This document shows positions 5,509-24,451 of a DNA stretch of 64,000 nt, piece by piece; the first letter of the stretch is position 1; each line of letters starts with the position of its first letter. The DNA lies in the NCBI RefSeq assembly GCF_020034655.1, contig NZ_JAIQDJ010000005.1:1-64000 (forward strand), in the 5' to 3' direction. The notes under the pieces were generated by a model, which had not been told where the DNA came from, did no database searches, and was given only the letters and a program-made list of their open reading frames with translations. The position numbers were made by a program, and so were the translations under genes. This DNA comes from Thermomonas beijingensis. GTDB lineage: Bacteria > Pseudomonadota > Gammaproteobacteria > Xanthomonadales > Xanthomonadaceae.

Positions 5509-6629
<1,121 letters not shown>

Positions 6630-7167: not shown

Positions 7168-7176
7168 GTCTTGCTT

Positions 7177-7261: not shown

Positions 7262-7522
7262 ATGTCGCTGAAAATCAACGAACTGTGCATAAATTGTGAT
7301 GTGTGCGAGCCGGTTTGCCCGAACAAGGCAATCTCCATGGGGCCAGACATCTACGTGATCGAAGCGGATCTTTGCACTGAGTGCGTGGGCCATTTCGACG
7401 AACCACAATGTGTCTCGGTATGTCCAGTTGAATGTATCGACCCTGATCCCGATCATCCGGAATCGCAGGAACAGCTGTTAGCCAAACTGGCGCAGCTGCA
7501 GGCTGAGGGAGCTGCACCATGA
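7262..7522 (+). CDS. YfhL-family 2[4Fe-4S] ferredoxin
   Basis: An 86-residue ferredoxin with CINCDVCEPVCPNKAI as the first cluster motif (Cys9, 12, 15, 19) and a second with the longer insert CTECVGHFDEPQCVSVCPVEC, the feature of the YfhL/Alvin group of low-potential ferredoxins. It acts as a cytoplasmic electron carrier; partners are not known from context. The start at 7262 gives the conserved MSLKINELC. Its stop overlaps the ggt start by 4 bases. In other Xanthomonadaceae a ferredoxin of this kind also sits near coaD. Confidence 0.94.
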   Translation: MSLKINELCINCDVCEPVCPNKAISMGPDIYVIEADLCTECVGHFDEPQCVSVCPVECIDPDPDHPESQEQLLAKLAQLQAEGAAP

Positions 7523-9263: not shown

Positions 9264-10151
9264 ATGAAACTTTGGTCTGTTCTCGGTAATTCGCAAAAGC
9301 TCGATGGTGGCGCGATGTTCGGCAACGCGCCGCGTGCACTGTGGGAACGCTGGGTGGCAGTGGATGCGCAAAACCGCATTGATCTAGCCTGCCGCGCATT
9401 GCTGGCCTCACCACTGAATGGCAAAACGGTGTTGTTTGAAACCGGCATCGGCGCGTTTTTCCCGCCGCAATTGCGTGAACGCTATGGGGTACTGGAAACC
9501 CGGCACGTATTGCTCGAATCATTGGTGCAGGCTGGTTTCCAGCATGAGGATATCGACGTGGTGGTGCTTTCGCACCTGCATTTCGATCACGCCGGTGGCC
9601 TGCTGGCGCCGTGGGTGGACGGGCGCGCACCCGAATTGCTGTTTCCCAACGCCACCTTCGTGATTGGTAAAGCACATTGGCAGCGCGCACTGCATCCGCA
9701 CCCACGCGATCGTGCCAGCTTCATTCCGGAATTGCCGGCGTTGTTGCAAGCCAGTGGCCGGTTGGAGTTGGTGGACGGTGATTATTCGCAGGCGCTGGGT
9801 CAAGCAGTGCGCTTCCATCACAGTGATGGGCATACCCCCGGGCTGATGTTGGCCGAGATTGCGGGTGCCCAACGTGATGACGGCGTGGCGCAGGGCGGCG
9901 TGGTGTTCTGCGCCGATTTGATCCCCGGCCGGCCGTGGGTGCACGTGCCGATCACGATGGGCTACGACCGCTGTGCGGAAACCTTGATCGACGAGAAACG
10001 CGCATTCTTGCAGGACATGCAGGCGCGCAATGTGCAGTTGTTTTTCACCCACGATGCCGCTTGTGCGATGGCGCAAGTGGTGTGCGATGACAAAGGGCGG
10101 TTTGCCGCCGCACACGAGCAGGCGGAGTTGCTGGGGTGGGAGCTGGGGTGA
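9264..10151 (+). CDS. Metallo-beta-lactamase-fold hydrolase
   Basis: A 295-residue MBL-fold protein with the metal motif H104-x-H106-x-D108-H109 in [11 protein letters not shown], a second-site His in [10 protein letters not shown] and a late His in FFTHDAA. There is no signal peptide, so it is probably cytoplasmic. The substrate cannot be read from the sequence; relatives include lactonases and thioesterases. It starts 23 bases after ggt and could share its transcript. It ends 45 bases before the convergent symporter gene. Confidence 0.85.
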
Positions 10152-10196: not shown

Positions 10197-11435
10197 TCAG
10201 CCTGGGTCTAGAACATCCTCACTGCGCGCCGCCACCACCGCCGTCGCGGTCATGTCGCCTGTCACGTTGCCGACCGTGGCCAGCACGTCGGGGATGGCGT
10301 CCACCGCCATCAGTACCGGCAACGCAGCGATCGGTAGGCCCATCGCGGAGGTGATGGGCAGGTTGGTGGCCAGGAAGATGGCTTGGCCGGGCAGGCCCAC
10401 CGAGCCCATGCTGACCAGCACGCTGAGCGCCACGCCGGTGGCCAATTGCGCGGGGCTGAGGTGAACACCGAGTGCCCATGCAATGAAGCAGGCGGTGGCG
10501 ATGTATTGGATGGGAGAGGTGATGCGAAACAGCGATACCGCCATCGGCAGGACCAACCCGGAAATACGCGCCGGGATGCCAAGCCGGTTTTGCGCGCTGT
10601 CCAGCATCGCCGGCAGGGTGGCCAGTGACGATTGCGTACTGGCGGCCACTGCTTGCACCGGCACCAAGCCACCCATGAAGTGACTGAAGTTGCGTTTTCC
10701 AACGGTGACGGCCACGGCGATCAGCAGCACCACGGCCAGTACATACAGCGCGCACTCCAGCACGATGTAGATACCCAGCGCCTGCAACATGCCAAGGCCT
10801 GCGCGTGCGGTTAGCGCCAGTACCAGCGCGAAGATCCCCACCGGTGCGGCCCACAGCACCCAGTGCACGATCACGATCATGGCGTCACTGATCGCTTTGA
10901 GCAGGCCCACCACCTGTGCGCGTGGGGCAGCCTCCAGCTTGGTCAGGGCGAAGCCGAAAAACAGCGCAAACGTCACCAGTGGCAGCATTGCAGACGCGGC
11001 CGCCGCCGCAATTGCATTGCTGGGCACGATGGCGGTGAGTGCGTTGGCCCAGCCGCCTGCCGGCGCGGTGATGGCGTCGGCGTGGCCGCGCAATGCGGCG
11101 GCAACGGCGGGATCTGGTTGCAGCATCGACAGTGCCAACGGAGCCAACAGCGCGGCCATCGCGGCGGCGGCGGTGAGCAGGATTACAAAGCTGGCAATGG
11201 CGTGCTTGGCCACACGACCGGAATGCGCGGCATCGCTGGCTTGATTGATGCCTACCACTACCAGCGCAAAGACCAGAGGCACCACGGTCATCTGCAGCGC
11301 GTTGAGCCACAACTTGCCGAATGGCTCAACAATCGCGGCAATCTGCAAGCCCGTGTCCGGTGCTTGCCACGCCAGCACGATGCCAAGGGCAATGCCGGCA
11401 ATCAGGCCGGTCAGGACGCGTGCGGTTTGGCTCAC
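10197..11435 (-). CDS. Dicarboxylate/amino acid:cation symporter (DAACS family)
   Basis: A 412-residue membrane protein with about eight hydrophobic segments and the re-entrant-loop motif AASTQSSLATLP (compare the Ser-rich SSSAATLP loop of glutamate transporters) and GIPARISGLVLPMAVSL. The family imports acidic or neutral amino acids or C4-dicarboxylates with Na+ or H+. The GTG at 11435 is taken as start because it overlaps the stop of the L,D-transpeptidase gene (GTGA) and begins right at the first membrane segment. As last gene of the minus-strand arm of the putative muropeptide locus it could import the amino acids set free outside (inference). Confidence 0.85.
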   Translation of the reverse strand: MSQTARVLTGLIAGIALGIVLAWQAPDTGLQIAAIVEPFGKLWLNALQMTVVPLVFALVVVGINQASDAAHSGRVAKHAIASFVILLTAAAAMAALLAPLALSMLQPDPAVAAALRGHADAITAPAGGWANALTAIVPSNAIAAAAASAMLPLVTFALFFGFALTKLEAAPRAQVVGLLKAISDAMIVIVHWVLWAAPVGIFALVLALTARAGLGMLQALGIYIVLECALYVLAVVLLIAVAVTVGKRNFSHFMGGLVPVQAVAASTQSSLATLPAMLDSAQNRLGIPARISGLVLPMAVSLFRITSPIQYIATACFIAWALGVHLSPAQLATGVALSVLVSMGSVGLPGQAIFLATNLPITSAMGLPIAALPVLMAVDAIPDVLATVGNVTGDMTATAVVAARSEDVLDPG

Positions 11436-12202
11436 AGGGCTACCTCGGGCAGGTTCCAGTCGTGTTTCAGCGCGGTGTACTGTGTATTTGGCAGCAGCAC
11501 GAACACGGGTTTGCGGCGCGCATCCAGCCACGCCAGCAGCGCGTCCATGCTGGCCGGTGCCATTGCGGTGCAGCCGGCGGTGGTTTCACCGGGGGCTTTC
11601 CATAAGTGGGCGAAAATGCAGCTGCCGCCTTGCTTTGCTACGCCACCTTCGTTGTGTTCGATCACGAAGCCTTCGCGATAGCGCTGGTCGCCATCGGCAT
11701 GCAGATCGCGCCGCATCGGCTCGCTGGATTCATCCAGATGCGGAGCTTTCACCAGACTGCGGTCGATGATCCGGTTGTAGTAGTTCGATGCCGGCACGTC
11801 GATGCACCAGTCATTGGTGGTCATCGCTTGATAGGGCAGGCCAGTGGTTGCGGTGGCGGCATAGCCAAACGCGGTACCGATGGCGAACACGCCGGCCGGC
11901 GCTTTGCCATCGCCTTCCTGCTTGATCGGGCCATCGCGGCGTTGCGCATTCAAACCGATACCCCACGCGCTGCCGGTGCGGCCCAGCATGACCGGCACCG
12001 CATCGCCCACTTGCACCCAATGGCCGTGGTTGCGATCGAAGCGGCGCAGCTGGCCACCGGTTGCATTCCAGTCGGTAGCGGTTACCAATACGAGTTGCTG
12101 GGCATTGGCCCAGCGGTTTGCATTGGAAACGGCGGGGAAGTGCGTGCAGGCGGCGAGTGACAGTGCAAGCAGCGCCGAGGCAGTGCGGTGGATTGGCATC
12201 AT
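11432..12202 (-). CDS. L,D-transpeptidase-fold (YkuD, COG3786 type) lipoprotein or exported protein
   Basis: A 256-residue protein with an N-terminal hydrophobic segment ending in LSLAAC, a likely lipobox. The catalytic domain shows the YkuD signature in the COG3786 form: His in CIFAHLWKAPG and nucleophile Cys in TTAGCTAM. Such enzymes form or cut L,D-bonds at diaminopimelate in peptidoglycan. ATG codons at 12202 and 12199 both fit. The gene lies between the symporter and the RpiR-type regulator, and an inverted repeat (12221-12266) separates it from the regulator, so it may have partly separate expression. Confidence 0.85.
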   Translation of the reverse strand: MMPIHRTASALLALSLAACTHFPAVSNANRWANAQQLVLVTATDWNATGGQLRRFDRNHGHWVQVGDAVPVMLGRTGSAWGIGLNAQRRDGPIKQEGDGKAPAGVFAIGTAFGYAATATTGLPYQAMTTNDWCIDVPASNYYNRIIDRSLVKAPHLDESSEPMRRDLHADGDQRYREGFVIEHNEGGVAKQGGSCIFAHLWKAPGETTAGCTAMAPASMDALLAWLDARRKPVFVLLPNTQYTALKHDWNLPEVAL

Positions 12203-12220
12203 TGGGCTACCAGGCAGCAG

Positions 12221-12266
12221 AAGGGGACGGAGGCTATCAAGCACACTTGATTGCCTCCGTCCCCTT
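12221..12266. repeat. REP-like inverted repeat at the end of the RpiR gene
   Basis: AAGGGGACGGAGGC (12221-12234) is repeated in perfect inversion as GCCTCCGTCCCCTT (12253-12266). The 18-base centre pairs further (TCAA/TTGA). Sequences built on GGGGACGGAGG are met as dispersed palindromes around RAYT (REP-associated transposase) genes in this bacterial family (from memory). The stop codon and last codons of the regulator gene lie inside it, and it can also act as a transcription terminator between regulator and L,D-transpeptidase genes. No second copy was seen in the window. Confidence 0.7.
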
Positions 12267-13094
12267 TTGGCGTTCTAGGGTTTCTTGCAGACGCGCGCGG
12301 CGCGCGGCATCGGTTTCGTACAGACGGATGAACAGCCGATCCAGTAGATGCTGCAGCGCCGAGTGATACAGCAGGCGTTCGATTTGCGGGCGCTCGTCGT
12401 GCGCGGCCACTAGCAGCGTCTGGTCAGCCAGTGCGCGCAAGGCGTTGGCGCTGTGGCGGGTCACCGTAATCACTTTGCCGCGTTGCGCGCGCATGTGTTG
12501 TGCCAGTTGGCACAGTGCCGGTTGCAGGCCGTGTTCGGAAAACGCCAGCAGCACATCGTTTGGTTTTGCCGCGGACAGGCTGGCGGTCATGTGTGCGGCA
12601 TCGAAATTGTGCACAGTCAGAATGCCCAGCTGCGCAAGCCGGAGCGCCAGCGCGCGCGCGTGCAGGTCATCTTCGCCCATGCCGACGATAAATACGGTGC
12701 CGGCGTGGCCCAGTGTCTCCGCCACGGCGGTGAGCGTGCCGGGTGGGTTGATCAAGCGGGTAGCTTCTTCAGCCTCGGATTTGCGCAGCCACAAGTCATA
12801 GCCTTGCGCAGCCACTGCCGGTGTGCCCTCCGGCAGCAGTGGTGTGCCGCCGTTGCTGTCGGCGCGGATCACTGCTTCGCTGATGGCCAGTTTGAGATCG
12901 GGGTAGCCCTTGAAGCCCAGTTTCTGGCAGAACTTGACCACGCTGGATTGGCTGATGCCCAGCGCATTGGCCAACTGCTGCGAGCTGTAGTCGCGCAGCA
13001 GGTGGGCGTTTTCCAAAATGAAATCGGCGATGCGGCGCTCGATCGCCGACATGCGATCGCGCTCGGAACGCAGAATGACCAGCGCCGTGCTCAT
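12237..13094 (-). CDS. RpiR/MurR-family transcriptional regulator with SIS domain
   Basis: A 285-residue regulator. Residues 1-77 are the RpiR helix-turn-helix domain (MSAIERRIADFILENAHLL, then LGISQSSVVKFCQKLGFKGY); about 130-255 is the SIS sugar-phosphate-binding domain (VFIVGMGEDDLHARALALRL). In E. coli MurR of this family responds to MurNAc-6-phosphate. Position in a cluster with a murein-peptide epimerase and NlpC/P60 peptidase suggests local control by a peptidoglycan-derived ligand (inference). The C-terminal tail KGTEAIKCA is coded by the REP-like palindrome, so the native end has probably been replaced. Translation is coupled to the epimerase through three tiny overlapping frames (13095-13138). 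Confidence 0.9.
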   Translation of the reverse strand: MSTALVILRSERDRMSAIERRIADFILENAHLLRDYSSQQLANALGISQSSVVKFCQKLGFKGYPDLKLAISEAVIRADSNGGTPLLPEGTPAVAAQGYDLWLRKSEAEEATRLINPPGTLTAVAETLGHAGTVFIVGMGEDDLHARALALRLAQLGILTVHNFDAAHMTASLSAAKPNDVLLAFSEHGLQPALCQLAQHMRAQRGKVITVTRHSANALRALADQTLLVAAHDERPQIERLLYHSALQHLLDRLFIRLYETDAARRARLQETLERQKGTEAIKCA

Positions 13095-13136
13095 GCGCGA
13101 AGTTTCATGCGAGCAGCCTCATGTGCGCACCCTCAT
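13095..13136 (-). repeat. Three tandem 14-base repeats forming a chain of 5-codon frames
   Basis: On the minus strand ATG codons lie at 13136, 13122, 13108 and 13094, exactly 14 bases apart. The units are ATGAGGGTGCGCAC, ATGAGGCTGCTCGC and ATGAAACTTCGCGC. The epimerase stop overlaps the first ATG as ATGA; each unit then gives a 5-codon frame (MRVRT, MRLLA, MKLRA) whose TGA overlaps the next ATG, the last being the start of the regulator. This keeps a terminating-reinitiating ribosome on track over the 38 bases between the genes. Confidence 0.8.
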
Positions 13137-14239
13137 GCGGCTAGGTTGTTGGCGGGCATCAAGCCGTCGATATGGCGAATCCCCAGCCCCGGAGCATTGG
13201 TCACACTGATCTCCGATTCGTTGAATAGCACACCGCTGGTCACCGGATCGTATTGGCTCAACGAGGGGCCATCCAGATCCACCTTGCTGATCACGTCGGA
13301 CTTGGCTACCGCCAAATGCACGGCGGCGGCAACACCAATACTGGATTCCAGCATGCAGCCAATCATGCAGTCCATGCCGTACAAGCTGCAAATATCGGCA
13401 ATTTTGATGGCATTGGAAATGCCACCGGTTTTCATCAGCTTGATGTTGACGATATCAGCGGCACGCATGCGAATCAGTTCCACCACTTCGCGGGGGCCGA
13501 ACACGCTTTCATCGGCCATCACGGGTGTATGCACGCGTTCGGTGACATAGCGCAAGCCGGCCAAGTCGTGCGCCTTGACCGGTTGTTCGACCAGTTCGAG
13601 CTTCACGCCTGCATCTTCCAGGGTTTGCAGCGCATACACCGCCTGCTTCGCCGTCCAGCCTTGATTGGCATCCAGTCGCAGCAGGGCACGGCCTTCCACG
13701 GCGGCGTGGATGGCTTTGGTGCGTTCGATATCCAAGCCGATGTCTTTGCCCACCTTGATTTTCAGCGACTCAAAACCACGCTCCACCGCTGCCAGTGAAT
13801 CCGCCACCATCTTGTCGATGTAGTCCACGCTGATGGTGATGTCGGTGGTAATGGCCGGCTCGCCACCGCCCAGCAATTGGTACAGCGGCGCGCCGTACAG
13901 CTGCCCCCACAAGTCATACAGCGCAATCTCCACCGCCGCTTTGGCGCTGGTGTTTTTCTCCATCGAAGACTGCACCAGTGCGGTCAGATGGTTGAGGTTG
14001 GCGATGTCTTGGCCAATCAATCGCGGGGCAATGTAATGACGCACTGCTTCGACGATGGAGCCGTGGGTGTCGCCAGTGATGACGGCAGTCGCAGGGGCAC
14101 TGCCATAGCCAACATGGCCATCGTTGGTGTGCACCATCACCACCACGTCTTCGACTTGATCGACCACGCGCAACGCGGTTTTGAAAGGGGTTTTCAGCGG
14201 CACGCGCAGCATGCCAAAACGGATGTCGGTGATCTTCAT
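13133..14239 (-). CDS. L-Ala-D/L-Glu epimerase (enolase superfamily dipeptide epimerase)
   Basis: A 368-residue enolase-superfamily enzyme of the muconate-lactonizing subgroup. The first acid/base Lys pair is in SLKIKVGKD; metal ligands are Asp in LRLDANQGW, Glu in LELVEQPV and Asp in VMADESVFG; the second Lys is in NIKLMKTGG. The two-Lys arrangement is that of 1,1-proton-transfer epimerases such as YcjG/YkfB, which turn L-Ala-D-Glu from murein into L-Ala-L-Glu. Start at 14239 (MKITDI) follows the NlpC/P60 gene by 10 bases and drops an unrelated N-terminal stretch. Neighbouring NlpC/P60 peptidase makes just this dipeptide, which supports the substrate call. Confidence 0.9.
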   Translation of the reverse strand: MKITDIRFGMLRVPLKTPFKTALRVVDQVEDVVVMVHTNDGHVGYGSAPATAVITGDTHGSIVEAVRHYIAPRLIGQDIANLNHLTALVQSSMEKNTSAKAAVEIALYDLWGQLYGAPLYQLLGGGEPAITTDITISVDYIDKMVADSLAAVERGFESLKIKVGKDIGLDIERTKAIHAAVEGRALLRLDANQGWTAKQAVYALQTLEDAGVKLELVEQPVKAHDLAGLRYVTERVHTPVMADESVFGPREVVELIRMRAADIVNIKLMKTGGISNAIKIADICSLYGMDCMIGCMLESSIGVAAAVHLAVAKSDVISKVDLDGPSLSQYDPVTSGVLFNESEISVTNAPGLGIRHIDGLMPANNLAA

Positions 14240-14249
14240 GGCATGGCCT

Positions 14250-15683
14250 TCATTGGAGTTTGCCCACCCGCACGATATTGGTGATGCGATCCACGTAGTC
14301 GGTGTCCTTGTCGAAACGCAGTGGCAGGAGCGGGGTGACGGATACGCCATTCAGATGCATGCTGTGCAGTGTGCCATCCCTGTCAAGATAGCTGCCGCCG
14401 TTGGTGTCATGAATGACATACGGGGCACCATTGATGCGACCCAAAAACAGCATCACGTGACCGGGGATGTAAATCAGATCGCCGACGTCTAGCGTGGCGA
14501 CTGCGGCCATGCGCTGCTGGCGGGGGGTGCGGGCATCAAAATGGATGCGCGAAAATACCGGACTGACCGCTTGCGCACTGGTATTGCGCGGCATCAGCAC
14601 GCCCATGCTGCGATACACATCGGACACAAAGCCGCTGCAATCGCGACCGTTGTAGCTATGCCCCCAGCCGTAGCGTTCACCGAGGAATTTGAAGGCTTGG
14701 CGAATCACATTGGCACGGGTGAGGGGCAGCGCAGCGGGGCTGCTATCGGTGTTTTTCTGCAGTAGCGCGGGCGCGAAGGCAAGCCGGCCGTCGTCGTTGC
14801 GCATGGGCAAGTCGAGGATCCACGACGTGTATGGATGCTGGCCGTTGACTGGCTTGTTGACGGCAACGTCCGCCAACGGAATACGCGTGCCCATGTCCAA
14901 TTGCAGCTCGGACAGGTGCGGTTGCTCACGCGTGAACAGCGTGCGCGGCTTGGCCCCGGTGATGATGCGAAATGGCGCGCGGGTGGCATAACCCAGCACG
15001 GCATCACGCCCACCTTCGGCAATTGCGCTGGCCTCCACCCACGCCGCGTAGCGCTGACTGAGCACAAATAGCCACTGGCCATCGGCGCTGGATTGGGTGA
15101 TGACCACGGCGTCGCCGGGGAACAGCGCGCTTTCCTGGAAACGGTCGATATCGGTATCCCCTTGGCTGGAAAATACCCGCAAGGTGGTCGGGAATGTGCG
15201 CAGTGCAGTGCGGCGCACGGCCATGCCATAGCGGGTGGCTTGATTGGCCGGGATTGCAGGCAGAGCGCGATTGGCGACGATGGCATCCAGTGTTGCCTGA
15301 GGGATCGATTTTCCGGTGTCATCCCAGAGTGGCTTGGTTGGAGCCGATGCTGATTCCTCGATCCAGGTGCGCACTTGCGCACCCGTCAAGCTGGCCGGAA
15401 GCGCAGCCAGATCGTGCATGGAAGGATCGTCATGCAATAGTCGCGCATTACGCGCTTCGATCTGTTGCGGCGTCAGTAGCAACTGTGCGGGCTGCTGGGT
15501 GCGTGCCAGCCAGAACGCGGGGGTCAGCTGTGCGTCTTGTATCCCGATCACTCCGCTGGCAGGCAGTTGCAGCGGGCTTGTCGATGGCGTGCGAGCAGCT
15601 GCCGGAACGGTGGCAAGCAACAACGTTGCCACCAGCAGGTGCCGGTGCCAGGACGGGTGGAGCGAGGTGCGGAGGGGAGCCAT
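14250..15683 (-). CDS. Exported NlpC/P60 peptidase with SH3 domains (gamma-D-glutamyl-diamino acid endopeptidase type)
   Basis: A 477-residue protein with a signal peptide (HRHLLVATLLLATVPAAA), an N-terminal NLPC_P60 stabilising region (TWIEESASAPTKPLWDD), two SH3-like domains (about residues 150-320) and the catalytic domain: Cys in YNGRDCSGFVSDVYRSMG, His in YIPGHVMLFLG and the third polar residue in HDTNG. Enzymes of this build (for example YkfC) split D-Glu from diaminopimelate in murein peptides, releasing L-Ala-D-Glu. The ATG at 15683 is preceded by GAGGGGAG region on the minus strand. First gene of the minus arm, read from the shared promoter region at 15684-15930. Confidence 0.9.
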   Translation of the reverse strand: MAPLRTSLHPSWHRHLLVATLLLATVPAAARTPSTSPLQLPASGVIGIQDAQLTPAFWLARTQQPAQLLLTPQQIEARNARLLHDDPSMHDLAALPASLTGAQVRTWIEESASAPTKPLWDDTGKSIPQATLDAIVANRALPAIPANQATRYGMAVRRTALRTFPTTLRVFSSQGDTDIDRFQESALFPGDAVVITQSSADGQWLFVLSQRYAAWVEASAIAEGGRDAVLGYATRAPFRIITGAKPRTLFTREQPHLSELQLDMGTRIPLADVAVNKPVNGQHPYTSWILDLPMRNDDGRLAFAPALLQKNTDSSPAALPLTRANVIRQAFKFLGERYGWGHSYNGRDCSGFVSDVYRSMGVLMPRNTSAQAVSPVFSRIHFDARTPRQQRMAAVATLDVGDLIYIPGHVMLFLGRINGAPYVIHDTNGGSYLDRDGTLHSMHLNGVSVTPLLPLRFDKDTDYVDRITNIVRVGKLQ

Positions 15684-15784
15684 GCCAATCCTTTGCGGGT
15701 AAGCCGTACAAGTGTGTGCTGCTGTCTGTGCATTGGGCAACGCGTTGCCTAGTGTGCAGGAAGTGATGCTTTTGGAATACATGA

Positions 15785-15805
15785 TTCAAGTATTTTATAC
15801 TTAAA
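15785..15805. promoter_or_regulatory. Palindrome in divergent promoter region, candidate RpiR/MurR operator
   Basis: The 247-base gap between the NlpC/P60 gene and the TonB receptor is AT-rich in its middle and holds AAGTAT-TTT-ATACTT (15788-15802), a perfect 6-base inverted repeat; flanking bases extend it to about 9-base arms with one mismatch. Ten bases on, TTGACA (15816-15821) followed after 17 bases by TTACAC could be the promoter of the plus arm. RpiR-type proteins bind short inverted repeats, so this is the best operator candidate; binding is inferred. Confidence 0.5.
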
Positions 15806-15930
15806 GAATAAATTATTGACAAGTGGATCGGCGTGGTGTTACACCTGTCATGCATCGCAGTGTCGATGGGGACTTTGGTCTGGATGCTGCTGTCGTTCAC
15901 ACATATATCGGACACGATCGGGGAAACGTC

Positions 15931-18930
15931 ATGAGCAATGACCGTATTTTGCGTAAATCCATTTTGAGCATCGCTATGGGGCTGTGCATTGCCTCGCTGG
16001 CATCGGTACCTGCGCTGGCACAAACCGCAACTGGCGGTGTAGCGGGGCGTGCGAATGCTGGTGACACCATCACTGTCACCAGCGCCACCACTGGACAAAG
16101 CCGTACAACAACGGTCAACAAGGACGGCACGTACCGCATCGGCCAGTTACCGCCGGGCAGTTACACGCTGGCAACAGGCAAGGGTAATCCCATCGCGTTT
16201 GCGGTTGACTTGGGCAACACCACCACGGTCAATCTGAAATCCGAAGGCAGTCCGACCAACCTGGAGGCCGTGCAGGTGATCGGTAGTGGCGTGGTCAATC
16301 GCGTGGACGTGCACAGCACGGAAACCGCCACCGTTATCGACCGTCAAGAATTGGCGCGGTTGCCTGTGGATCAAAGCATGGGTGCGGTAGCGTTGCTTGC
16401 ACCGGGTGTCATCAAGGGTAATTCGTCGTTCGGTGGTATTTCATTTGGCGGCTCATCGGTGGCCGAAAATCAAATCTATGTCAACGGCTTGAATGTCACG
16501 GATTTTTACCGCCGGCAGGGCAATTCCAGTGCGCCGTTTGCGTTCTTTGATCAATTTCAGGTCAAGACCGGTGGCTATTCGGTGGAATTCGGGCGCAGTA
16601 CCGGTGGTGTGGTCAATGCTTCAGTACGCGCCGGTGGCAATGAATTTCATGGTGGCGCGGAACTGACCTTCGAGCCGGCAGCCTTCAGTGCTGCCACCGA
16701 TGATCATGTGTTCACCCATCCCACCGCACCCACGACCTATGTGCGGGGCAGTCGTGACAAGTCCAGCTTGACCAAGACCAATATTTGGGCATCTGGGCCC
16801 ATTGTGAAAGATCGCCTGTTCTTCTTTGCGATGTACGAAAACCAGGACTATCGTGCTGGCAATACCGACAACACCGGCTCCGATTGGACGCGCACCAAAT
16901 CGAATAATGGCTTTTGGGGTACGCGGTTGGATTGGAATATCACCGACAATCATGTGCTGTCGCTGATGGCCTTCTCCGACAAGGCGGATTCTGCTGCTTC
17001 GGCTTATGCTTACGACTGGTCAAGCGAAAGGATTGGTGCCTACGGCGGTGACACCATGAATGAGACCGGCGGCAAGAACTGGACGTTGACCTATACCGGT
17101 CATTTCGGTGAAAACTTCGTTGCCAAAGCGATGTATGGCGAAAACGACCGCAATGCGTTTACCCATTCAGTGCTGGATATCGACTGCAATCCGATTTCAG
17201 TCGATGGCAGTTATGCAGGGGCCGGTGCATTGGTAGGCAAGACCGTAGGTTGTCACCCGACCGGTGATTCCGTGACCAAGATGGACAACACCCGCAAAAT
17301 CGGCCGTTTGGATTTTGAGTGGGCATTGGGCAACCATCTGCTGCGGTTTGGCCTGGACCAAGAGAAGCTGACCACGCAGCAAAGCTCGTATTACCCTGGT
17401 CCTGGCGGTGATGCGTTGTTGGCAATGACGCTTGCTGCCGGCACTGAAATCGTGGATGGTTCCGGCGTGTTTTTGTCTCAAAATACCGACATCATTCGCA
17501 AACGGCATCGCGTACTTGGCGGGGCATTTGAAACCGTCAATAATGCCTACTACATCGAAGACAACTGGAATATCACCGATAGCTTCTTGCTCAATCTTGG
17601 TGTGCGGATCGACAATTTCAAGAACAAGACTGCGGCGGGCGATGCCTTCATCAACATCAAGAACTTGGTGGCCCCGCGTGGCGGTTTCAGCTGGGACATG
17701 AAGGGCGACGGCACCACCAAGTTGTACGGCAATTTGGGGCGTTATTACCTGCCGGTAACCAATATCATCAGTACGTCATTTGCCGGCGGGTTGGTGGATG
17801 AGTACAGCTTCTTCCAGCTCAATGGTTGGCAACAGGCCACCAATCCTGAAACCGGTGCCACCTACATGGCACCCATTATCGGCGCGCAAATTGGCCCTAC
17901 CGACAAAAGCATGAACACCGGTGGGGATGACCTGCGAGGTATCTTCCCGAAGGACTTGAAGGCGGTTTATCAAGACGAGGCGATTTTCGGCTACGAGCGC
18001 GCCATCAATGAGGCGTGGTCGTGGGGTGTGAATGCCACCTATCGTCGAATGAACCGCACCATCGAAGATACCCGCATTACGCATTCCAACTGCCCGAGTG
18101 GTTTCAATTGGCCGATCATCAACCCTGGCGAGAAAAACACACTGTGGTGCGATGACATCGGCAATGGCCAAGGCGGTTGGGTGGAGCTGGATACCAGTGT
18201 CGATGGGTACAAAAAGACCAACGGTGAAATCATCGGTTACAAAAAGCCCAAGCGCGAATACAAGGCGTTGGAGTTCCAGCTGGATCGTGCCTGGGATGGC
18301 AAGTGGTCGTTCAATGCCAGCTATCTGTGGTCAAAATCGACCGGAAACTTTGAAGGTCCGGTGAATTCAGATACCGGCTACAACGACACTGGCATGGTGC
18401 AGTACTACGATCATCCGGCGGTGAACGAACGCTATGGGGTGCTGTTCAATGATCACCGTCATCAGGTGAAGTTGCGCGGCAGCTACAAGTTGAACGACAT
18501 GTGGTCATTTGGCTCCACGTTGACCGTACTGTCGGGCGGGCCGATTACCGCTTATGGCACCTACTGGCCGGGGGACAACCGTGCGGCGGGCTCATCGGGT
18601 GAATTCAGCGGCGGTGGTTCCGGTTGGATCTGCGTAGCCAACTGCAAGCAAGCGTACAACCTGCGGCAGTACGAGTACACCGGGCTGGGTGCATTCGGCC
18701 GGATGCCGTGGACCTTTGACTGGGGTGCAAGCGTGACCTGGACCATGCCGGTGCCGGACGTGGACTTGAAGGTGCGCCTGTCGGTGTACAACCTGCTGAA
18801 CAAGCAAACCACGGTGCGTGTGCGGACCCGTTACGAGGTCACTCCCGGCGTCTATCGTGAAACCTTTGGTGAAGGCTCCAATTGGGCGGCGCCACGTTCC
18901 GCACAGTTGGTGCTGACCTACAACTTCTGA
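15931..18930 (+). CDS. Oar-like TonB-dependent outer-membrane receptor with carboxypeptidase-regulatory-like domain
   Basis: A 999-residue outer-membrane receptor. A signal peptide (cleavage near ALAQ, residue 30) leads to a carboxypeptidase-regulatory-like Ig fold (about 31-105, ITVTSATTGQSRTTTVNKDG), the plug (QVIGSGVVNRVDVHSTET to about 230) and a large beta-barrel ending in Phe (LVLTYNF). Such receptors take up peptides or complex organic ligands with TonB energy. The ATG at 15931 has GGGGAAAC before it and starts the signal peptide; an earlier in-frame ATG at 15823 does not. First gene of the plus arm, so the likely cargo is a murein-derived peptide (inference from neighbours only). A terminator follows. 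Confidence 0.9.
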   Translation: MSNDRILRKSILSIAMGLCIASLASVPALAQTATGGVAGRANAGDTITVTSATTGQSRTTTVNKDGTYRIGQLPPGSYTLATGKGNPIAFAVDLGNTTTVNLKSEGSPTNLEAVQVIGSGVVNRVDVHSTETATVIDRQELARLPVDQSMGAVALLAPGVIKGNSSFGGISFGGSSVAENQIYVNGLNVTDFYRRQGNSSAPFAFFDQFQVKTGGYSVEFGRSTGGVVNASVRAGGNEFHGGAELTFEPAAFSAATDDHVFTHPTAPTTYVRGSRDKSSLTKTNIWASGPIVKDRLFFFAMYENQDYRAGNTDNTGSDWTRTKSNNGFWGTRLDWNITDNHVLSLMAFSDKADSAASAYAYDWSSERIGAYGGDTMNETGGKNWTLTYTGHFGENFVAKAMYGENDRNAFTHSVLDIDCNPISVDGSYAGAGALVGKTVGCHPTGDSVTKMDNTRKIGRLDFEWALGNHLLRFGLDQEKLTTQQSSYYPGPGGDALLAMTLAAGTEIVDGSGVFLSQNTDIIRKRHRVLGGAFETVNNAYYIEDNWNITDSFLLNLGVRIDNFKNKTAAGDAFINIKNLVAPRGGFSWDMKGDGTTKLYGNLGRYYLPVTNIISTSFAGGLVDEYSFFQLNGWQQATNPETGATYMAPIIGAQIGPTDKSMNTGGDDLRGIFPKDLKAVYQDEAIFGYERAINEAWSWGVNATYRRMNRTIEDTRITHSNCPSGFNWPIINPGEKNTLWCDDIGNGQGGWVELDTSVDGYKKTNGEIIGYKKPKREYKALEFQLDRAWDGKWSFNASYLWSKSTGNFEGPVNSDTGYNDTGMVQYYDHPAVNERYGVLFNDHRHQVKLRGSYKLNDMWSFGSTLTVLSGGPITAYGTYWPGDNRAAGSSGEFSGGGSGWICVANCKQAYNLRQYEYTGLGAFGRMPWTFDWGASVTWTMPVPDVDLKVRLSVYNLLNKQTTVRVRTRYEVTPGVYRETFGEGSNWAAPRSAQLVLTYNF

Positions 18931-18972
18931 TTGCGGTAACCCGTAGTCACGGCAGTGTGTGGTTCCCCTGGG

Positions 18973-19003
18973 GGCGGCCCTTCGCCGGGCCGCCATTTTT
19001 TTT
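18973..19003 (+). terminator. Rho-independent terminator after the TonB receptor
   Basis: GGCGGCCC (18973-18980), loop TTCGCC, GGGCCGCC (18987-18994), then A and eight T. It lies 42 bases after the receptor stop and just 12 bases before the decarboxylase start, so it should lower expression of the downstream enzymes relative to the receptor. Confidence 0.85.
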
Positions 19004-19015
19004 GAGGTTTGAAAA

Positions 19016-20284
19016 ATGCAGGATGTGACTTCGTGCTGGAGCACCGGGGTGTTTGCCGGTGTGGATTTGGAACAGCTGGCCCTGCGTGAAGGCACGCCCT
19101 TGTATGTGTACTCCGCGCCGGCGATTCGCAGCCGTATGCGCGCCTTGCACGATGCCTTGCAGGGGTTGAACGCGGGCATTCGCTATGCCGTCAAAGCCAA
19201 TGGCACGCTGGCCGTGTTGCAGTTGTTGGCGGAGCAGGGCGCGGGTGCCGATATCGTGTCTGCAGGCGAATTACAGCGTGCCCTGCGGGCAGGCATTGCC
19301 GCGTGCGACATCGTGTTTTCCGGTGTCGGCAAGACCGATGCAGAAATCGGCATGGCGCTGGCTGCGGGTGTGGGCCGCTTCAATCTGGAATCGCGTGCAG
19401 AGCTTGATGCGGTTCAGCGGATTGCCGCTGCACGCGGTTGCATGGCCACTGCTTCGGTGCGCATCAATCCCGACGTGGACGCGCAAACCCACGCCAAGAT
19501 TTCCACCGGTAAAGCCGAGAACAAATTCGGGGTTGCGATCAGTGAAGCGCGTGCGTGGTTCGATGCGCACACAACATGGCCCAACGTGCAGCTGGATGGC
19601 TTGCATATGCATATTGGGTCGCAACTGCTCAGCCTTGCGCCGGTGGCAGAGGCCGTTCAGCGGATGGCCACGTTCTGGCAGCAATTGGTGGTTGCAGGGC
19701 ACAGCATTGCAAGTCTGGATGTGGGTGGTGGCTTGGGTGTGCGCTATCGCGAGGGCGAACATGCGCCCGCAGCGCGGGACTACGCCGACATTTTGCGCAC
19801 CGCATTTGCCGGCTTTGATGGTCGAATCCTGGTGGAGCCAGGTCGCTGGCTAGTGGCCGAGGCGGGCGTGCTGTTGTCGCGCGTGGTGTTGGTAAAACAG
19901 GGCGAGGCGCGCCGGTTCTTGGTGCTGGATGCGGCGATGAACGATCTGTTGCGCCCCAGCTTGTACGAGGCATGGCATGACATCGTGCGTATTGGTGACG
20001 ATGCTGGCCGTGAATCCTTGGCCTATGACGTGGTGGGGCCGGTGTGTGAAACCGGCGACACCTTCGCGATGGATCGGACATTGCCGCGCTGCGCTGCCGG
20101 CGAGTTGGTCGCGATATTGGGCACCGGTGCGTATGCGTCGTCGATGGGGTCGACCTACAATTCGCGCCCATTGCCTGCGGAAGTACTGGTGGACGGAGGC
20201 CGCTATGCGCTGGTTCGTCGACGCCAGACATTCGATGCGATGATTGCCGACGAGCAACCCGCTAGCGTTTGGAACAGCCCATGA
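19016..20284 (+). CDS. lysA: Diaminopimelate decarboxylase-type PLP enzyme
   Basis: A 422-residue fold-type III PLP enzyme. The PLP Lys is K60 in RYAVKANGT; phosphate and substrate residues are in HMHIGSQLL, DVGGGLGVRY, EPGRWLVAEAG and the Cys-containing GPVCETGDTFA (Cys344, from the partner subunit in the dimer), then AYASSMGSTYNSRP. These are LysA signatures; meso-diaminopimelate would give L-lysine and CO2. In Xanthomonadaceae the biosynthetic enzyme is often fused to aspartokinase, so this stand-alone copy beside murein-peptide genes may be catabolic (inference). It overlaps the next gene by 4 bases. Confidence 0.88.
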   Translation: MQDVTSCWSTGVFAGVDLEQLALREGTPLYVYSAPAIRSRMRALHDALQGLNAGIRYAVKANGTLAVLQLLAEQGAGADIVSAGELQRALRAGIAACDIVFSGVGKTDAEIGMALAAGVGRFNLESRAELDAVQRIAAARGCMATASVRINPDVDAQTHAKISTGKAENKFGVAISEARAWFDAHTTWPNVQLDGLHMHIGSQLLSLAPVAEAVQRMATFWQQLVVAGHSIASLDVGGGLGVRYREGEHAPAARDYADILRTAFAGFDGRILVEPGRWLVAEAGVLLSRVVLVKQGEARRFLVLDAAMNDLLRPSLYEAWHDIVRIGDDAGRESLAYDVVGPVCETGDTFAMDRTLPRCAAGELVAILGTGAYASSMGSTYNSRPLPAEVLVDGGRYALVRRRQTFDAMIADEQPASVWNSP

Positions 20285-21891
20285 AGCCGTCTACAGCCAC
20301 GATGTGCCTAGCCCTGTTGCTGCTGATTGGCGCGGCGCAAGCGCCGGCTCAAGTGCCGTCACAAGCCAGCGTAGTCGGCATCGCGAGCAGTCCTGCGCCA
20401 ACGGCAGAGATGATCGACGCCATGGTACGCGCCACTATCCGGCGTTATCAGTTGCCGGGAATTGCAGTGGGCGTGATCGAGGATGGCCGGCTGGTATTCG
20501 CACGTGGCTATGGCGAAACCGTGCACGGCAGTGGCGACCCCATCACGCGGCACACCTTGTTCAAGATTGCCAGCAACAGCAAGGCGATGACCGCCGCGCT
20601 GTTGGCACGCTTGGTGCAACAGGGCAAATTGCAATGGAATGACCCGGTGGTGAAGTATTTGCCAGAGTTCGCCATGCACGATGCGTGGGTCACCGCGCAT
20701 ATGACCGTGAATGATCTGCTGGTGCATAACAGTGGCCTGCCCGAAGGTGGCGGCGATTTGATGCTGTGGCCCGAGCCCAACGCATTTACCCGTGACGACA
20801 TCGTGCATGGCTTGCGTTATATCAAGCCTGCTTACGGGTTTCGTGCCGGCTATGCCTACGATAATTTGTTGTACGTGGTGGCTGGCAAAGTCGCGGAAGC
20901 TGCTGGCGGCGCAACCTATGAAGCGTTAATCCAGCGCGAGTTATTTGAACCGCTCGGACTGCACGATTGCAAGGTGGGTGCATTTGTCTTGCGCGAGGCC
21001 GGCAGCGTGGCGCAGCCGCACGGCCGTGATGGCGACAAGATCGTACCCACGCGTCCAGACCCGGCGCAGGTGCCGGCCATTGCGTCGGCACCTGCGGGCG
21101 GCGTTCGTTGCAGCTTGGACGATATGTTGGTGTGGGCGAATAATTTTCTTGCCCCCACGCCTGCGCAACTGCAATGGCTGTCACCTGTGCAGCGCGCTGA
21201 ATTGTGGGAGGCACGCACACCCATGCCCATTTCCCGGCAACGTCGGCAGTGGGACAACACCCATTACTACGCCTATGCCTATGGCTTCCGGCTGGCCGAT
21301 GTGGACGGGCAATGGACGGTGTCGCATACCGGTACCTTGGGCGGCATGTATTCGATGATGATGCTATTGCCCGATCGTAAATCCGGCTTCGTGTTCATGA
21401 TCAATGGCGATGGCGGCAACGCACGCACCGTGCTGGGCACGGCATTGCTGAAATTATTTACCGCTCCGGCAACTTCACTCGGCGTGGATGGTTATGCCAA
21501 TGCCTTGGCCAAGCCCGCAATCAGCACGCCCGCCACAGCGCACGCGCCGCTGCCTGATCTCCGCAAGCGCACTGCCGTGCGGCCTGCTGCAATGCGCAAT
21601 TGGCTTGGGGTTTGGCGTGATCCGTGGTTTGGCGACGTGCGGATCTGTGGCGTAGGCCAGCACGTGGAATGGCGCTCTGCGAAGTCAGAGAAAATGCACG
21701 GTCAAATCACCCAGCTGGATAGCCGCATGTTGCTGGTGTGGCAGGATGAGGCGGTGGATGAAAACGCGTGGCTTGACTTCACTGGCAATGGCCAGTCACG
21801 CCGGTTACGCATGGCCAAATTTGACCCGCATGGGGATTTTTCATCCGACTATGAAGACCTCGATTTCCAACGCGTGGGCGATTGTGACTAA
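20281..21891 (+). CDS. Exported serine hydrolase, beta-lactamase/S12 family, with C-terminal DUF3471-like domain
   Basis: A 536-residue protein with a signal peptide (MKPSTATMCLALLLLIGAAQ, cleavage near APAQ). The penicillin-binding fold shows S98-x-x-K101 in IASNSKAMT, the Tyr motif Y193-D-N195 and a HTG triad (SHTGTLGG). After about residue 400 comes an extra domain (RNWLGVWRDPWFGDVRICG) like DUF3471. S12 enzymes include D-aminopeptidases and D,D-carboxypeptidases, so trimming of D-amino acids from murein peptides is plausible. Start at 20281 overlaps the lysA-type gene stop (ATGA). Confidence 0.85.
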   Translation: MKPSTATMCLALLLLIGAAQAPAQVPSQASVVGIASSPAPTAEMIDAMVRATIRRYQLPGIAVGVIEDGRLVFARGYGETVHGSGDPITRHTLFKIASNSKAMTAALLARLVQQGKLQWNDPVVKYLPEFAMHDAWVTAHMTVNDLLVHNSGLPEGGGDLMLWPEPNAFTRDDIVHGLRYIKPAYGFRAGYAYDNLLYVVAGKVAEAAGGATYEALIQRELFEPLGLHDCKVGAFVLREAGSVAQPHGRDGDKIVPTRPDPAQVPAIASAPAGGVRCSLDDMLVWANNFLAPTPAQLQWLSPVQRAELWEARTPMPISRQRRQWDNTHYYAYAYGFRLADVDGQWTVSHTGTLGGMYSMMMLLPDRKSGFVFMINGDGGNARTVLGTALLKLFTAPATSLGVDGYANALAKPAISTPATAHAPLPDLRKRTAVRPAAMRNWLGVWRDPWFGDVRICGVGQHVEWRSAKSEKMHGQITQLDSRMLLVWQDEAVDENAWLDFTGNGQSRRLRMAKFDPHGDFSSDYEDLDFQRVGDCD

Positions 21892-22987
21892 CCGATGGCG
21901 CTGTGCGCGTGGGCTGTTGCCGCTGTGCCTGGTGTGGGTCGTGATGATCCCTGTGGCAGCATCGGCGGCAGAGCGTCCTTCCTCCCGGCAGCCTGTCATG
22001 CCCAATGCCGCAATTGATCAACTCTTGCATGACTATCAAGGTGATGTGCCAGGCGCTTCGCTGTTGGTGTTGCAAGATGGCGTACCGCTGGTGGCGCGTG
22101 GCATGGGCAAATCCGATCTGGAAACTGGCACGGCGGCCGGCCCGCAGACCAACTACCGCCTTGCATCGGTGAGCAAACAGTTCACCGCCGCTGCCATTTT
22201 GCTGCTGCTGCAAGATGGCAAGCTGACCTTGGACGATCCCGCGCGCAGATGGTTACCCTTGCTGCCGCCGGAAACCGGGGCCATCACCCTGCGCCATCTG
22301 CTGACCCACACCTCGGGTCTGATTGATTATGAAGACCTGATGGTAGAGCCGTACACCGGTCAGATCCACGATGCCGGGGTGCTGGCCCTGCTGGCGCAGG
22401 AACATCGTTTGTATTTTGCGCCGGGTACCGCATATCGCTACAGCAATAGCGCCTACGCACTGCTGTCGCTGATTGTGGAACGTGCCAGTGGCATGGACTA
22501 TCCCGGCTTTCTGCAAGCGCGGATTTTTCAGCCATTGGGGATGACGCATACGCTGGCTTTTGTGGACGGCGCTGCAGCAGTGCCGCAGCGGGCCTTTGGC
22601 TATAGCTGGGCAGATGGCCATTGGCAACGCACCGATCAAAGCTCAACCAGTGCAGTGCTGGGGGATGGCGGGATCTACTCCAACATCGACGACCTGGCCA
22701 AATGGGATGCCGCCCTGTACGACGACCGCCTGTTGACCAGCGCTTCGCGTGCACTGGCGTTTGGTCCGCACGCGGAAGTCACTGGTGAAGGCTACCAGGC
22801 CCGCTATGGGTTTGGTTGGCGCATGACCGGGGACACCCAGTGGCATTCCGGCGAAACCATTGGCTTTCGCAATGTCATCGTGCGCTGGCCAGCGCGGCAT
22901 CTGAGTGTGGTCTTGCTGACCAATCGCAACGATTCGGAACCCTACAAAACCGCACTGGCGATCGGCGCACTGTTCCAGCAACCGTAA
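21851..22987 (+). CDS. Second exported serine hydrolase, beta-lactamase/S12 family
   Basis: A 378-residue protein (from the ATG at 21851) with S106-V-S-K109 as active site, Y197-S-N199 as Tyr motif and LLTHTSGLIDYE between them; HSGETIGFRN replaces the KTG-type triad as H-S-G. It has no C-terminal extra domain, unlike its upstream neighbour, and the two share only fold motifs, so they are not a recent duplication. A GTG at 21884 gives a shorter, cleaner signal peptide (RGLLPLCLVWVVMIPVAASA) and an 8-base overlap with the previous gene; it may be the true start. Last gene of the plus arm of the locus. Confidence 0.83.
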   Translation: MKTSISNAWAIVTNRWRCARGLLPLCLVWVVMIPVAASAAERPSSRQPVMPNAAIDQLLHDYQGDVPGASLLVLQDGVPLVARGMGKSDLETGTAAGPQTNYRLASVSKQFTAAAILLLLQDGKLTLDDPARRWLPLLPPETGAITLRHLLTHTSGLIDYEDLMVEPYTGQIHDAGVLALLAQEHRLYFAPGTAYRYSNSAYALLSLIVERASGMDYPGFLQARIFQPLGMTHTLAFVDGAAAVPQRAFGYSWADGHWQRTDQSSTSAVLGDGGIYSNIDDLAKWDAALYDDRLLTSASRALAFGPHAEVTGEGYQARYGFGWRMTGDTQWHSGETIGFRNVIVRWPARHLSVVLLTNRNDSEPYKTALAIGALFQQP

Positions 22988-23062
22988 ATTTCGACCTCGC
23001 AGTCGCGGAAATTGCGACACGCGCCGTCTAAGATGCAGCCTTCTTCTAATGCTGACGCCACG

Positions 23063-24451
23063 ATGGCCAAACCTCCCGGCAAACCCCGTACGGCCTACGT
23101 GTGCACCGAGTGCGGTGCCGATTACGCCAAATGGCAGGGCCAGTGCGAGGCCTGCGGGGCATGGAATACCTTGTCTGAAATCGCGCTGGAAACCGCAGCG
23201 CAAGCCAAGTCACCGGCCGCGCGCCGCAGCGGTTGGGCGGGCAAAGTGGATGCGCCGAAGATCACGCCCTTGGCCGAGGTGCGCACCGACGAGCAAGCGC
23301 GGGCATCGACCGGCATCAGTGAGTTTGACCGCGTACTGGGCGGTGGCTTGGCCGAGGGCGCAGTGGTGCTGGTGGGTGGGGATCCGGGCATCGGCAAATC
23401 CACTTTGTTGCTGCAAACACTGGCCAAAATGGCCGGCAGCTTGCCGGGGTTGTATGTGACAGGCGAAGAGTCGCTGGCGCAAGTGGCGGGCCGTGCGCAG
23501 CGGCTGGGCTTGCCATTGGCAGGCTTGCATGGCTTGGCCGAAACCTGCGTGGAGCGCATTCTGGAACACGCCATCGTCGCCAAGCCGCGCCTGCTGATTG
23601 CCGATTCCATCCAAACCTTGTGGACGGACACCTTGAGCGCAGCACCAGGGTCGGTGAGCCAGGTACGCGAAGCCGCGGCGCGCTTGGTGCGTTATGCCAA
23701 AGAAACCGGCACGGCCGTATTTCTGGTCGGGCACGTGACAAAAGAGGGCGGTATCGCCGGGCCGCGTGTGCTGGAGCACATGGTGGATGCGGTGCTGTAT
23801 TTCGAAGGTGATTCCGGCAGTCGTTTTCGTGTGCTGCGTGCATTCAAAAATCGCTTTGGCGCCGTCAATGAGCTGGGTGTGTTTGCGATGTCCGATGCCG
23901 GCCTGCGTGAAGTGGCCAATCCTTCCGCGATATTTTTATCCGGCAGCGGCCGCCCGCAACCGGGCAGTTGCGTGATGGTGACCCGCGAAGGTACGCGCCC
24001 GTTGCTGGTGGAAGTGCAAGCCTTGGTGGACGCATCGCCGTTGTCCAACCCGCGCCGCGTGGTAGTGGGCCTGGAAGGCAACCGGCTGGCCATGCTGCTG
24101 GCGGTGTTGCATCGCCACGGCGGGGTGATGGTGGGCGATCAAGACGTGTTCGTGAATGTGGTGGGCGGTATCCGCGTGCAAGAAACCGCCGCCGACTTGC
24201 CGGTGCTGTTGGCGGTGCTCTCGTCACTGCGCAATGCTCCATTGCCCGACAAAACCATCGCGTTTGGCGAAGTGGGCCTGAGTGGTGAAATCCGTCCGGT
24301 GCCAAACGGCGAAGAACGCCTGAAAGAAGCTGCTACTCACGGCTTCAAACGCGCCATCGTGCCCAAGGCCAACGCACCGAAAGCCGGCAGCTACAAAGGA
24401 ATGGAAGTGATCGCGGTGGAGCGATTGGCCGACGCGCTGGAGCAAGCGTGA
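23063..24451 (+). CDS. radA: DNA repair protein RadA
   Basis: A 462-residue RecA-like helicase that helps branch migration in recombination. Order: zinc finger CTECGADYAKWQGQCEACG (residues 12-30), Walker A GGDPGIGKSTLL, the RadA-specific KNRFG motif in RAFKNRFGAVNELG, and a Lon-like C-terminal domain ending with EVIAVERLADALEQA. Start ATG at 23063 begins MAKPPGKPRTAYVC; earlier in-frame ATG codons lie in the non-conserved leader. Its stop overlaps the GTG start of the DUF817 gene. Confidence 0.97.
   Translation: MAKPPGKPRTAYVCTECGADYAKWQGQCEACGAWNTLSEIALETAAQAKSPAARRSGWAGKVDAPKITPLAEVRTDEQARASTGISEFDRVLGGGLAEGAVVLVGGDPGIGKSTLLLQTLAKMAGSLPGLYVTGEESLAQVAGRAQRLGLPLAGLHGLAETCVERILEHAIVAKPRLLIADSIQTLWTDTLSAAPGSVSQVREAAARLVRYAKETGTAVFLVGHVTKEGGIAGPRVLEHMVDAVLYFEGDSGSRFRVLRAFKNRFGAVNELGVFAMSDAGLREVANPSAIFLSGSGRPQPGSCVMVTREGTRPLLVEVQALVDASPLSNPRRVVVGLEGNRLAMLLAVLHRHGGVMVGDQDVFVNVVGGIRVQETAADLPVLLAVLSSLRNAPLPDKTIAFGEVGLSGEIRPVPNGEERLKEAATHGFKRAIVPKANAPKAGSYKGMEVIAVERLADALEQA

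Follow-up and report, generated by a model that had tools for sequence, protein, structure and literature searches.

The window analysed here is the whole 64,000-nucleotide stretch at positions 1 to 64,000 of contig NZ_JAIQDJ010000005.1 (contig 5 of the 2.79-Mb, 60-contig genome of Thermomonas beijingensis, assembly GCF_020034655.1, completeness given as 100), and its subject is a locus of nine genes at 10197–22987 that is a candidate for the use of peptidoglycan peptides. The genes lie in two arms facing away from each other (Table 1). From the centre outwards, the minus-strand arm encodes an NlpC/P60 endopeptidase with SH3 domains, a dipeptide epimerase, an RpiR regulator, a YkuD-like protein and an SDF symporter; the plus-strand arm encodes, in order, a TonB-dependent receptor, the diaminopimelate decarboxylase LysA and two S12 serine hydrolases (S12a and S12b). 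An earlier note on this DNA had placed these nine genes and their families at these positions, and Pfam and NCBIfam searches recovered all of them.

Several open reading frames (ORFs) appeared over-extended at their starts. Probable starts, set by eye using signal peptides and homologues, lie at 15683 (NlpC), 14239 (epimerase), 12202 (YkuD), 11435 (symporter) and 15931 (receptor), so that the promoter region that the earlier note saw as shared between the arms spans about 247 bases (15684–15930). The ‘many 4-base overlaps’ of that note come down to two, GTGA at the YkuD/symporter junction and ATGA at the LysA/S12a junction; S12a and S12b overlap by 8 bases, and the remaining junctions are gaps. 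With signal peptides and a lipobox assessed by eye, the NlpC, YkuD, S12a and S12b proteins, four hydrolases of cell-wall enzyme families, look exported, as does the receptor; the epimerase, LysA and the regulator do not.

Table 1 Features of the divergent locus in the 64,000-nucleotide window
Feature	Positions	Strand	Evidence
SDF-family (glutamate/aspartate-type) symporter	10197..11435	-	PF00375, 257 bits; probable GTG start
YkuD-fold protein, probable lipoprotein, likely L,D-carboxypeptidase	11432..12202	-	PF03734, 21.9 bits (cut-off 23.4)
MurR/RpiR-type regulator, HTH_6 + SIS	12237..13094	-	PF01418, 81.7 bits (cut-off 28.3); PF01380, 49.1 bits (cut-off 25)
Dipeptide epimerase, likely L-Ala-D/L-Glu, enolase superfamily	13133..14239	-	PF02746/PF13378
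NlpC/P60 endopeptidase, DvLysin/PnpA type, predicted exported	14250..15683	-	PF00877, PF12913
Shared divergent promoter region	15684..15930	.	between probable NlpC and receptor starts
Box B GAATCATGTATTC, inverted repeat, candidate regulator operator	15775..15787	-	core GAATCANNTATTC
Box A GTCAATAATTTATTCTT	15804..15820	-	conserved core GTCAATAANTTAT
TonB-dependent outer-membrane receptor	15931..18930	+	Plug PF07715, OMP_b-brl_4 PF25183
Stand-alone diaminopimelate decarboxylase LysA, the genome's second	19016..20284	+	TIGR01048
S12 serine hydrolase a, predicted exported	20281..21891	+	PF00144, 216.4 bits
S12 serine hydrolase b, predicted exported	21884..22987	+	PF00144, 224.9 bits

The arrangement recurs in relatives. 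We compared it with 80 named loci, each anchored on the epimerase alone and together the best of 418 matches by epimerase sequence; 14 end early at contig ends, 66 are fully flanked, and the 10-kb flank sets the limit for the rest. Genera among them include Thermomonas, Pseudoxanthomonas, Luteimonas, Lysobacter, Rhodanobacter, Dyella, Luteibacter, Frateuria and Xanthomonas, and nearly all keep the order NlpC, epimerase, RpiR, YkuD, symporter with the opposite arm divergent. Locus counts are tblastn matches anywhere in a locus, with families assigned by Pfam on representatives; S12a and S12b, or receptors, may cross-match, an accessory match may lie outside the operon, and the ORFs of relatives come from a GC-frame caller that is itself rough. 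Among the fully flanked loci (all 80 in brackets), epimerase and RpiR are each found in 66 (80), NlpC in 66 (79), YkuD in 65 (76), the receptor in 62 (72), the symporter in 59 (70) and LysA in 49 (58). Further members are a transglutaminase-like gene in 63 (72), a DUF819 membrane protein in 50 (58), an M19 dipeptidase in 47 (52), an FAD oxidase in 37 (41), S12a in 31 (36), S12b in 23 (26), a VanX-type M15 gene in 18 (21) and Amidase_2 in 6 (6). Of the 66, 63 have M19, VanX-type M15 or Amidase_2, singly or in combination, and these extra genes strengthen the peptidoglycan-peptide theme that the earlier note proposed. In relatives the transglutaminase-like gene adjoins the promoter on the receptor arm (for example, 5631–7199 of locus L018).

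A second sample of 149 genomes, drawn from the family and chosen independently of the 80 loci, was scanned with thresholds of E up to 1e-40 for the epimerase and up to 1e-20 for NlpC. Epimerase matches occur in 90 genomes and NlpC matches in 98, and every epimerase genome has NlpC (Fisher p 8.5e-32, kinship uncorrected); the other 59 have no epimerase match. This is a real, conserved divergent locus and not a chance neighbourhood, and the co-occurrence in relatives that the earlier note set as a check is borne out by both samples. A class-wide scan (E 1e-20) found NlpC in 7 of 369 genomes, four of the same family (own genome included) and three with weak scores of 73–80 bits; its negatives are soft because at most four candidates were scored per genome and the sole genome marked as being of the same order, G512, had none.

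Several genomes depart from the pattern. Within the genus, G051 and G107 have neither an epimerase nor an NlpC match, and G081 (C7:105558-106657) has its epimerase spread over two overlapping frames, by frameshift or assembly error. An NlpC homologue with an internal TAG in G037 (C1:2202063-2203505), a genome with no epimerase match, looks like a decaying remnant. G057 carries two epimerase copies on C4 (15229-16332 and 37713-38801, about 21 kb apart), 83 and 79% identical to that of the window. Loci L043 and L045 have a second epimerase-like gene (32% identical) near a gamma-glutamyltransferase-like gene, downstream of the locus at about 17.4–19.5 kb.

The best solved relative of the epimerase is the Bacillus subtilis L-Ala-D/L-Glu epimerase (1jpm/1tkk, 338 bits), and the motifs KTALR, LKIKV, LDAN, EQPV, ADES, NIKLMK and DLDGP are identical in 77 of 77 aligned sequences. 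Alignment with 1jpm places Arg24 and Asp321-x-Asp323 (B. subtilis numbers), which we take to be the specificity residues of that enzyme, in the protein of the window. Lys162 and Lys268, as given in the accessible part of PMC5808125, are likewise present, and the protein likely acts on the L-Ala-D/L-Glu dipeptide. The NlpC protein was modelled as one fold of c-clip, two SH3b and NlpC/P60 domains with a Cys-His-His/Asn site, and the model fits DvLysin over 405 residues and PnpA over 400. Its Asn400 follows a conserved Arg (Asn in 77 of 80 aligned sequences, Asp in 3), and DvLysin also has Asn after this Arg; equivalence with the site in the ykfABC-type enzyme was taken from Asp-to-Arg spacing (237 to 255 there, 381 to 399 here) rather than from a printed alignment. 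On fold and this one key residue, the model makes the endopeptidase DvLysin/PnpA type and not the YkfC type first proposed. PnpA cleaves the gamma-D-Glu-meso-diaminopimelate bond, according to the accessible part of PMC7860986, and for the enzyme here we predict export and cleavage of gamma-D-Glu-diamino acid bonds.

LysA might act on diaminopimelate from stem peptides or, alternatively, supply lysine from the cell's own diaminopimelate. It passes the curated equivalog cut-off of TIGR01048 (459.2 against 297.9 bits), as a biosynthetic enzyme might, matches the solved structure 3vab at 376.7 bits and belongs to an alignment of 59 sequences in which CETGD is kept in 57 and YNSRP in 58. The earlier note had suggested looking for a second, aspartokinase-fused lysA; elsewhere in the genome we found an ORF of 871 amino acids with AA_kinase, ACT and diaminopimelate-decarboxylase domains, a LysC-LysA fusion, so the LysA of the locus is not the sole diaminopimelate decarboxylase that a biosynthetic role would imply. 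A fusion-type match was also present in all 20 named genomes searched of the 80, 16 of which have a stand-alone LysA too. In the family sample (at least 460 bits, up to 12 candidates scored per genome), stand-alone LysA occurs in 20 of 149 genomes, all epimerase-positive, and in none of the 59 epimerase-negative genomes (Fisher p 2.7e-5, kinship uncorrected). For 18 of the 20, the stand-alone LysA and epimerase genes share a contig and are no more than 8 kb apart; in G041 and G114, both fragmented assemblies, they are on different contigs. A second LysA match was found in 19 of the 20 genomes, the exception being G114, which is 85% complete, and among the matches listed it sits in a frame of at least 883 amino acids, as a fusion would, in 16 of those 19. 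With a fusion enzyme at hand and a stand-alone lysA never seen without the epimerase, lysine biosynthesis is a highly improbable role for the locus enzyme, and the linkage argues for catabolic flow through it, as we infer.

The remaining hydrolases are less sharply defined. The YkuD protein falls just under the Pfam cut-off, has the YkuD fold with catalytic His and Cys, and in its model is nearest to Pgp2 and Csd6; it looks like a lipoprotein and is likely an L,D-carboxypeptidase. S12a reached no named profile cut-off among the best 25 of 47 profiles, nor did S12b among the best 25 of 46, where the top profile, D-aminopeptidase, gave 108.4 of the 443 bits needed. Both distantly resemble class C beta-lactamases, which would suit a response to cell-wall stress or beta-lactams in which the regulator senses wall fragments. 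Such a response would leave the receptor, the epimerase and LysA with no role, no beta-lactamase cut-off was reached among the best 25 profiles for either S12 protein, and the S12 genes are less constant than the peptide enzymes (31 and 23 of 66 loci, some possibly lying past the 10-kb flank); we regard it as extremely unlikely. The weak specific names that NCBIfam gives the S12 pair, and the breadth of the S12, M19 and SDF families, would also fit a general scavenging of D-amino acids or dipeptides, for example from antibiotic peptides or those derived from proteins, without any particular tie to the cell wall. That explanation seems quite improbable to us, since the epimerase motifs, the gamma-D-Glu-meso-diaminopimelate endopeptidase fold and the diaminopimelate decarboxylase converge on a single stem peptide, and VanX-type and Amidase_2 genes accompany the locus in relatives.

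Conserved boxes mark the region between the arms. In 78 of 79 NlpC-bearing loci the promoter region contains the 13-base core of box A, and the core is absent from the remainder of these loci; a stricter form, seen in 66 loci, has no other site in the 1.586 Mb that the 80 loci make up together. The exact box has a single site in the genome of the window, with two more sites at 2 mismatches. Among the 149 family genomes, the core is present in 68, of which 67 are NlpC-positive, against one match for a reversed control; a few matches lie off the locus (G003 C21, G068, G124 C22), and one in G117 is about 5.7 kb from NlpC. Box A is overlapped by a TTGACA, a possible -35 element for the receptor arm, which means that some of the conservation of the box may reflect ordinary promoter sequence. 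The core of box B, in its five-spacer form, is kept in 34 of 79 loci and is found nowhere else in them; a first pattern with six spacer bases was dropped after matching nothing in the promoter region and 8 sites elsewhere. An inverted repeat, AAGTATTTTATACTT at 15788–15802, was set aside as an operator in favour of boxes A and B, since relatives do not keep the repeat. A further stretch, GTGTARCAYG, is shared by 70 of 79 loci, with no copy elsewhere in those loci; its exact form does not occur in the window.

The RpiR protein, whose two domains both score well over their cut-offs, is likely, given its adjacent gene, to be the binder of box A, a putative assignment. Its SIS loops, GMGEDD and FSEHGLQ, are poorer in serine than those of the solved relatives 4ivn and 8tx9: the first has no Ser in 80 of 80 sequences, and the second retains one Ser in the 12 commonest patterns listed (62 of 80). 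With most loop serines missing, the usual phosphosugar-type signal of such a SIS domain is doubtful.

For transport, the receptor combines a CarboxypepD_reg-like N-terminal part (PF13620 just under cut-off) with an OMP_b-brl_4 barrel, and no related sequence was found among solved structures. In an alignment with GltPh-type chains, the symporter has Ala at the position of GltPh Arg397, which we take to be the residue that binds the acidic side chain in glutamate/aspartate SDF symporters, and its relatives share this Ala in each of the 12 patterns listed, which cover 56 of the 65 sequences aligned. Because of this Ala, a neutral amino acid is the likely cargo rather than glutamate, and a role as importer of L-Ala-D-Glu or glutamate is disfavoured. 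The DUF819 protein of relatives, whose gene lies between that for NlpC and the opposite arm (for example, at 7398–8552 of locus L012) and is not in the window, is a candidate carrier for wall peptides. DUF819 and M19 genes do occur elsewhere in the genome of the window, and their low identity to the locus types (30% and 33–34%, respectively) kept us from taking them as locus-type genes.

We consider it probable, at roughly two in three, that this is a TonB-linked peptidoglycan-peptide utilisation locus, turning outside muropeptides into alanine, glutamate and lysine. The route that we infer, in its substrates, direction of flow, export and regulation, would run as follows. Stem peptides or small muropeptides would reach the periplasm through the receptor; there, the YkuD lipoprotein and the S12 enzymes likely trim terminal D-amino acids and the NlpC/P60 enzyme would cleave the gamma-D-Glu-meso-diaminopimelate bond. 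L-Ala-D-Glu and diaminopimelate would then cross the inner membrane by some carrier, and in the cytoplasm the epimerase would yield L-Ala-L-Glu, splittable by ordinary dipeptidases, while LysA would convert diaminopimelate to lysine. The symporter likely recovers freed neutral amino acids such as alanine. Control of both arms likely falls to the RpiR protein, acting at the conserved boxes that separate them.

The same enzymes might instead recycle the cell's own wall, with the locus recovering stem peptides lost in growth and the receptor retrieving leaked material. E. coli recycles peptidoglycan with AmpG, Mpl, MpaA and YcjG. The chemical bonds and the epimerase reaction are shared between that system and the locus (in part from the accessible text of PMC2954226), whereas here the AmpG-type and Mpl genes lie off the locus, the endopeptidase is unrelated to its E. 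coli counterpart, and the E. coli system has no receptor. The match of enzyme types to known recycling of the peptide part, and the signal sequences seen by eye on the NlpC and YkuD proteins, favour recycling. Yet AmpG-type and Mpl genes score over cut-off elsewhere in the genome, so that key genes of standard recycling already exist in addition to the locus; 59 of 149 family genomes do without an epimerase match; and an outer-membrane receptor accompanies 62 of the 66 fully flanked loci. We therefore judge own-wall recycling unlikely.

The utilisation of outside peptides has to be held against several findings that weigh on the other side. The 80 loci, as the nearest of 418 by epimerase sequence, are not an independent sample. 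The epimerase itself scores below the NCBIfam cut-offs (250.1 of 500 bits for NF041118, 112.2 of 343 for NF011708), 8 of the 98 NlpC-positive genomes have no epimerase match, and 31 of the 98 lack the exact box A core. The receptor was not found in 4 of the 66 fully flanked loci. LysA was not found in 17 of the 66, nor in 70 of the 90 epimerase-positive genomes; since all 20 genomes that have it are epimerase-positive, it is better described as an accessory but faithful partner than as a fixed part. No inner-membrane importer for L-Ala-D-Glu or diaminopimelate was identified, the symporter being without the Arg for acidic side chains; Pfam found no muramic-sugar gene among the nine; and the window has none of the M19, VanX-type, amidase, transglutaminase-like, DUF819 and FAD oxidase genes of relatives. 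With no proven inner-membrane importer and no M19, VanX-type or amidase gene in the window, the ‘complete pathway’ of the earlier note is not what we find. Its interpretation thus survives in its peptidoglycan-peptide theme, the conservation of the neighbours and the second lysA, and gives way on completeness, the YkfC type and a fixed LysA; a glutamate-type symporter and a phosphosugar signal are not supported either.

A broader claim, which we offer tentatively and at rather below even odds, is that Xanthomonadales possess a dedicated machine for consuming the peptide half of peptidoglycan, TonB-fed and RpiR-controlled. Its LysA would be a second enzyme recruited from biosynthesis to catabolism, its SIS sensor, having given up the phosphosugar loops, would respond to a peptide or an amino acid, and DUF819 would be a new carrier of wall peptides across the inner membrane.

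Among known systems, ykfABC offers the best reading of the locus, which would be its Gram-negative counterpart equipped with a TonB receptor. No Pfam match among the nine genes corresponds to a YkfA-type L,D-carboxypeptidase (YkfA being of family S66) or to a dpp ABC importer. The pairing of epimerase and NlpC is itself already known from Bacillus, Listeria, Acidobacterium, Solibacter, Bacteroides and Gramella, according to the accessible part of PMC2954226. By the same partial source, ykfABCD beside dppB-E in B. subtilis and ykfBC in B. cereus share with the locus an epimerase gene adjoining that of an NlpC/P60 gamma-D-Glu-diamino acid endopeptidase, and an L,D-carboxypeptidase function, supplied there by YkfA and here by the non-homologous predicted YkuD-fold protein (PMC2954226). 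In contrast to those systems as described there, a TonB receptor replaces the ABC importer, the NlpC subtype is another, and LysA, the S12 enzymes and the RpiR regulator are features of the locus here (PMC2954226). Of the four-domain NlpC/P60 endopeptidases DvLysin, PnpA and EcgA, the first two match in model, with the Asn after the conserved Arg shared with DvLysin; in the part of PMC7860986 available these endopeptidases figure as stand-alone enzymes that remodel or attack walls, whereas the gene here is linked with those of an epimerase and a receptor. TonB-fed N-acetylglucosamine clusters such as Caulobacter CCNA_00452-00458 likewise set a receptor beside catabolic enzymes and a regulator for one wall-derived compound, but serve the sugar half and not the peptide half, with a phosphotransferase-system permease and a likely GntR regulator (accessible part of PMC13046382). 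The new elements here are the links to TonB and to LysA, the box that the loci share, and a distribution that takes in two families' worth of genera within the order. We found no description of the locus among the matches listed from the open-licence literature, subscription papers being outside the scope, and muropeptides appear only as plant elicitors in the accessible part of PMC3551730.

Past the locus ends lie an MBL-fold gene (9264–10151, by eye) and a gamma-glutamyltransferase gene (7519–9240) on one side and a radA-like gene (23012–24451, by eye) on the other. The gamma-glutamyltransferase gene was rejected as a locus member, its matches among the 80 loci being confined to L043, L045 and L047, at 15.5–17.5 kb. 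Elsewhere the window holds a minus-strand tRNA-Phe(gaa) gene (1140–1215) and a match to the Moco (molybdenum/tungsten) riboswitch (31928–32085, 60.1 bits).

If the locus does serve peptidoglycan-peptide utilisation, many soil, water and plant bacteria of the order would have a regulated route to the wall peptides of other bacteria, and the users would include lytic genera such as Lysobacter. A catabolic LysA, a family of YkuD lipoproteins, a family of TonB receptors and DUF819 would each gain a predicted function, and the RpiR regulator would have a predicted target that answers to a signal other than a sugar phosphate.

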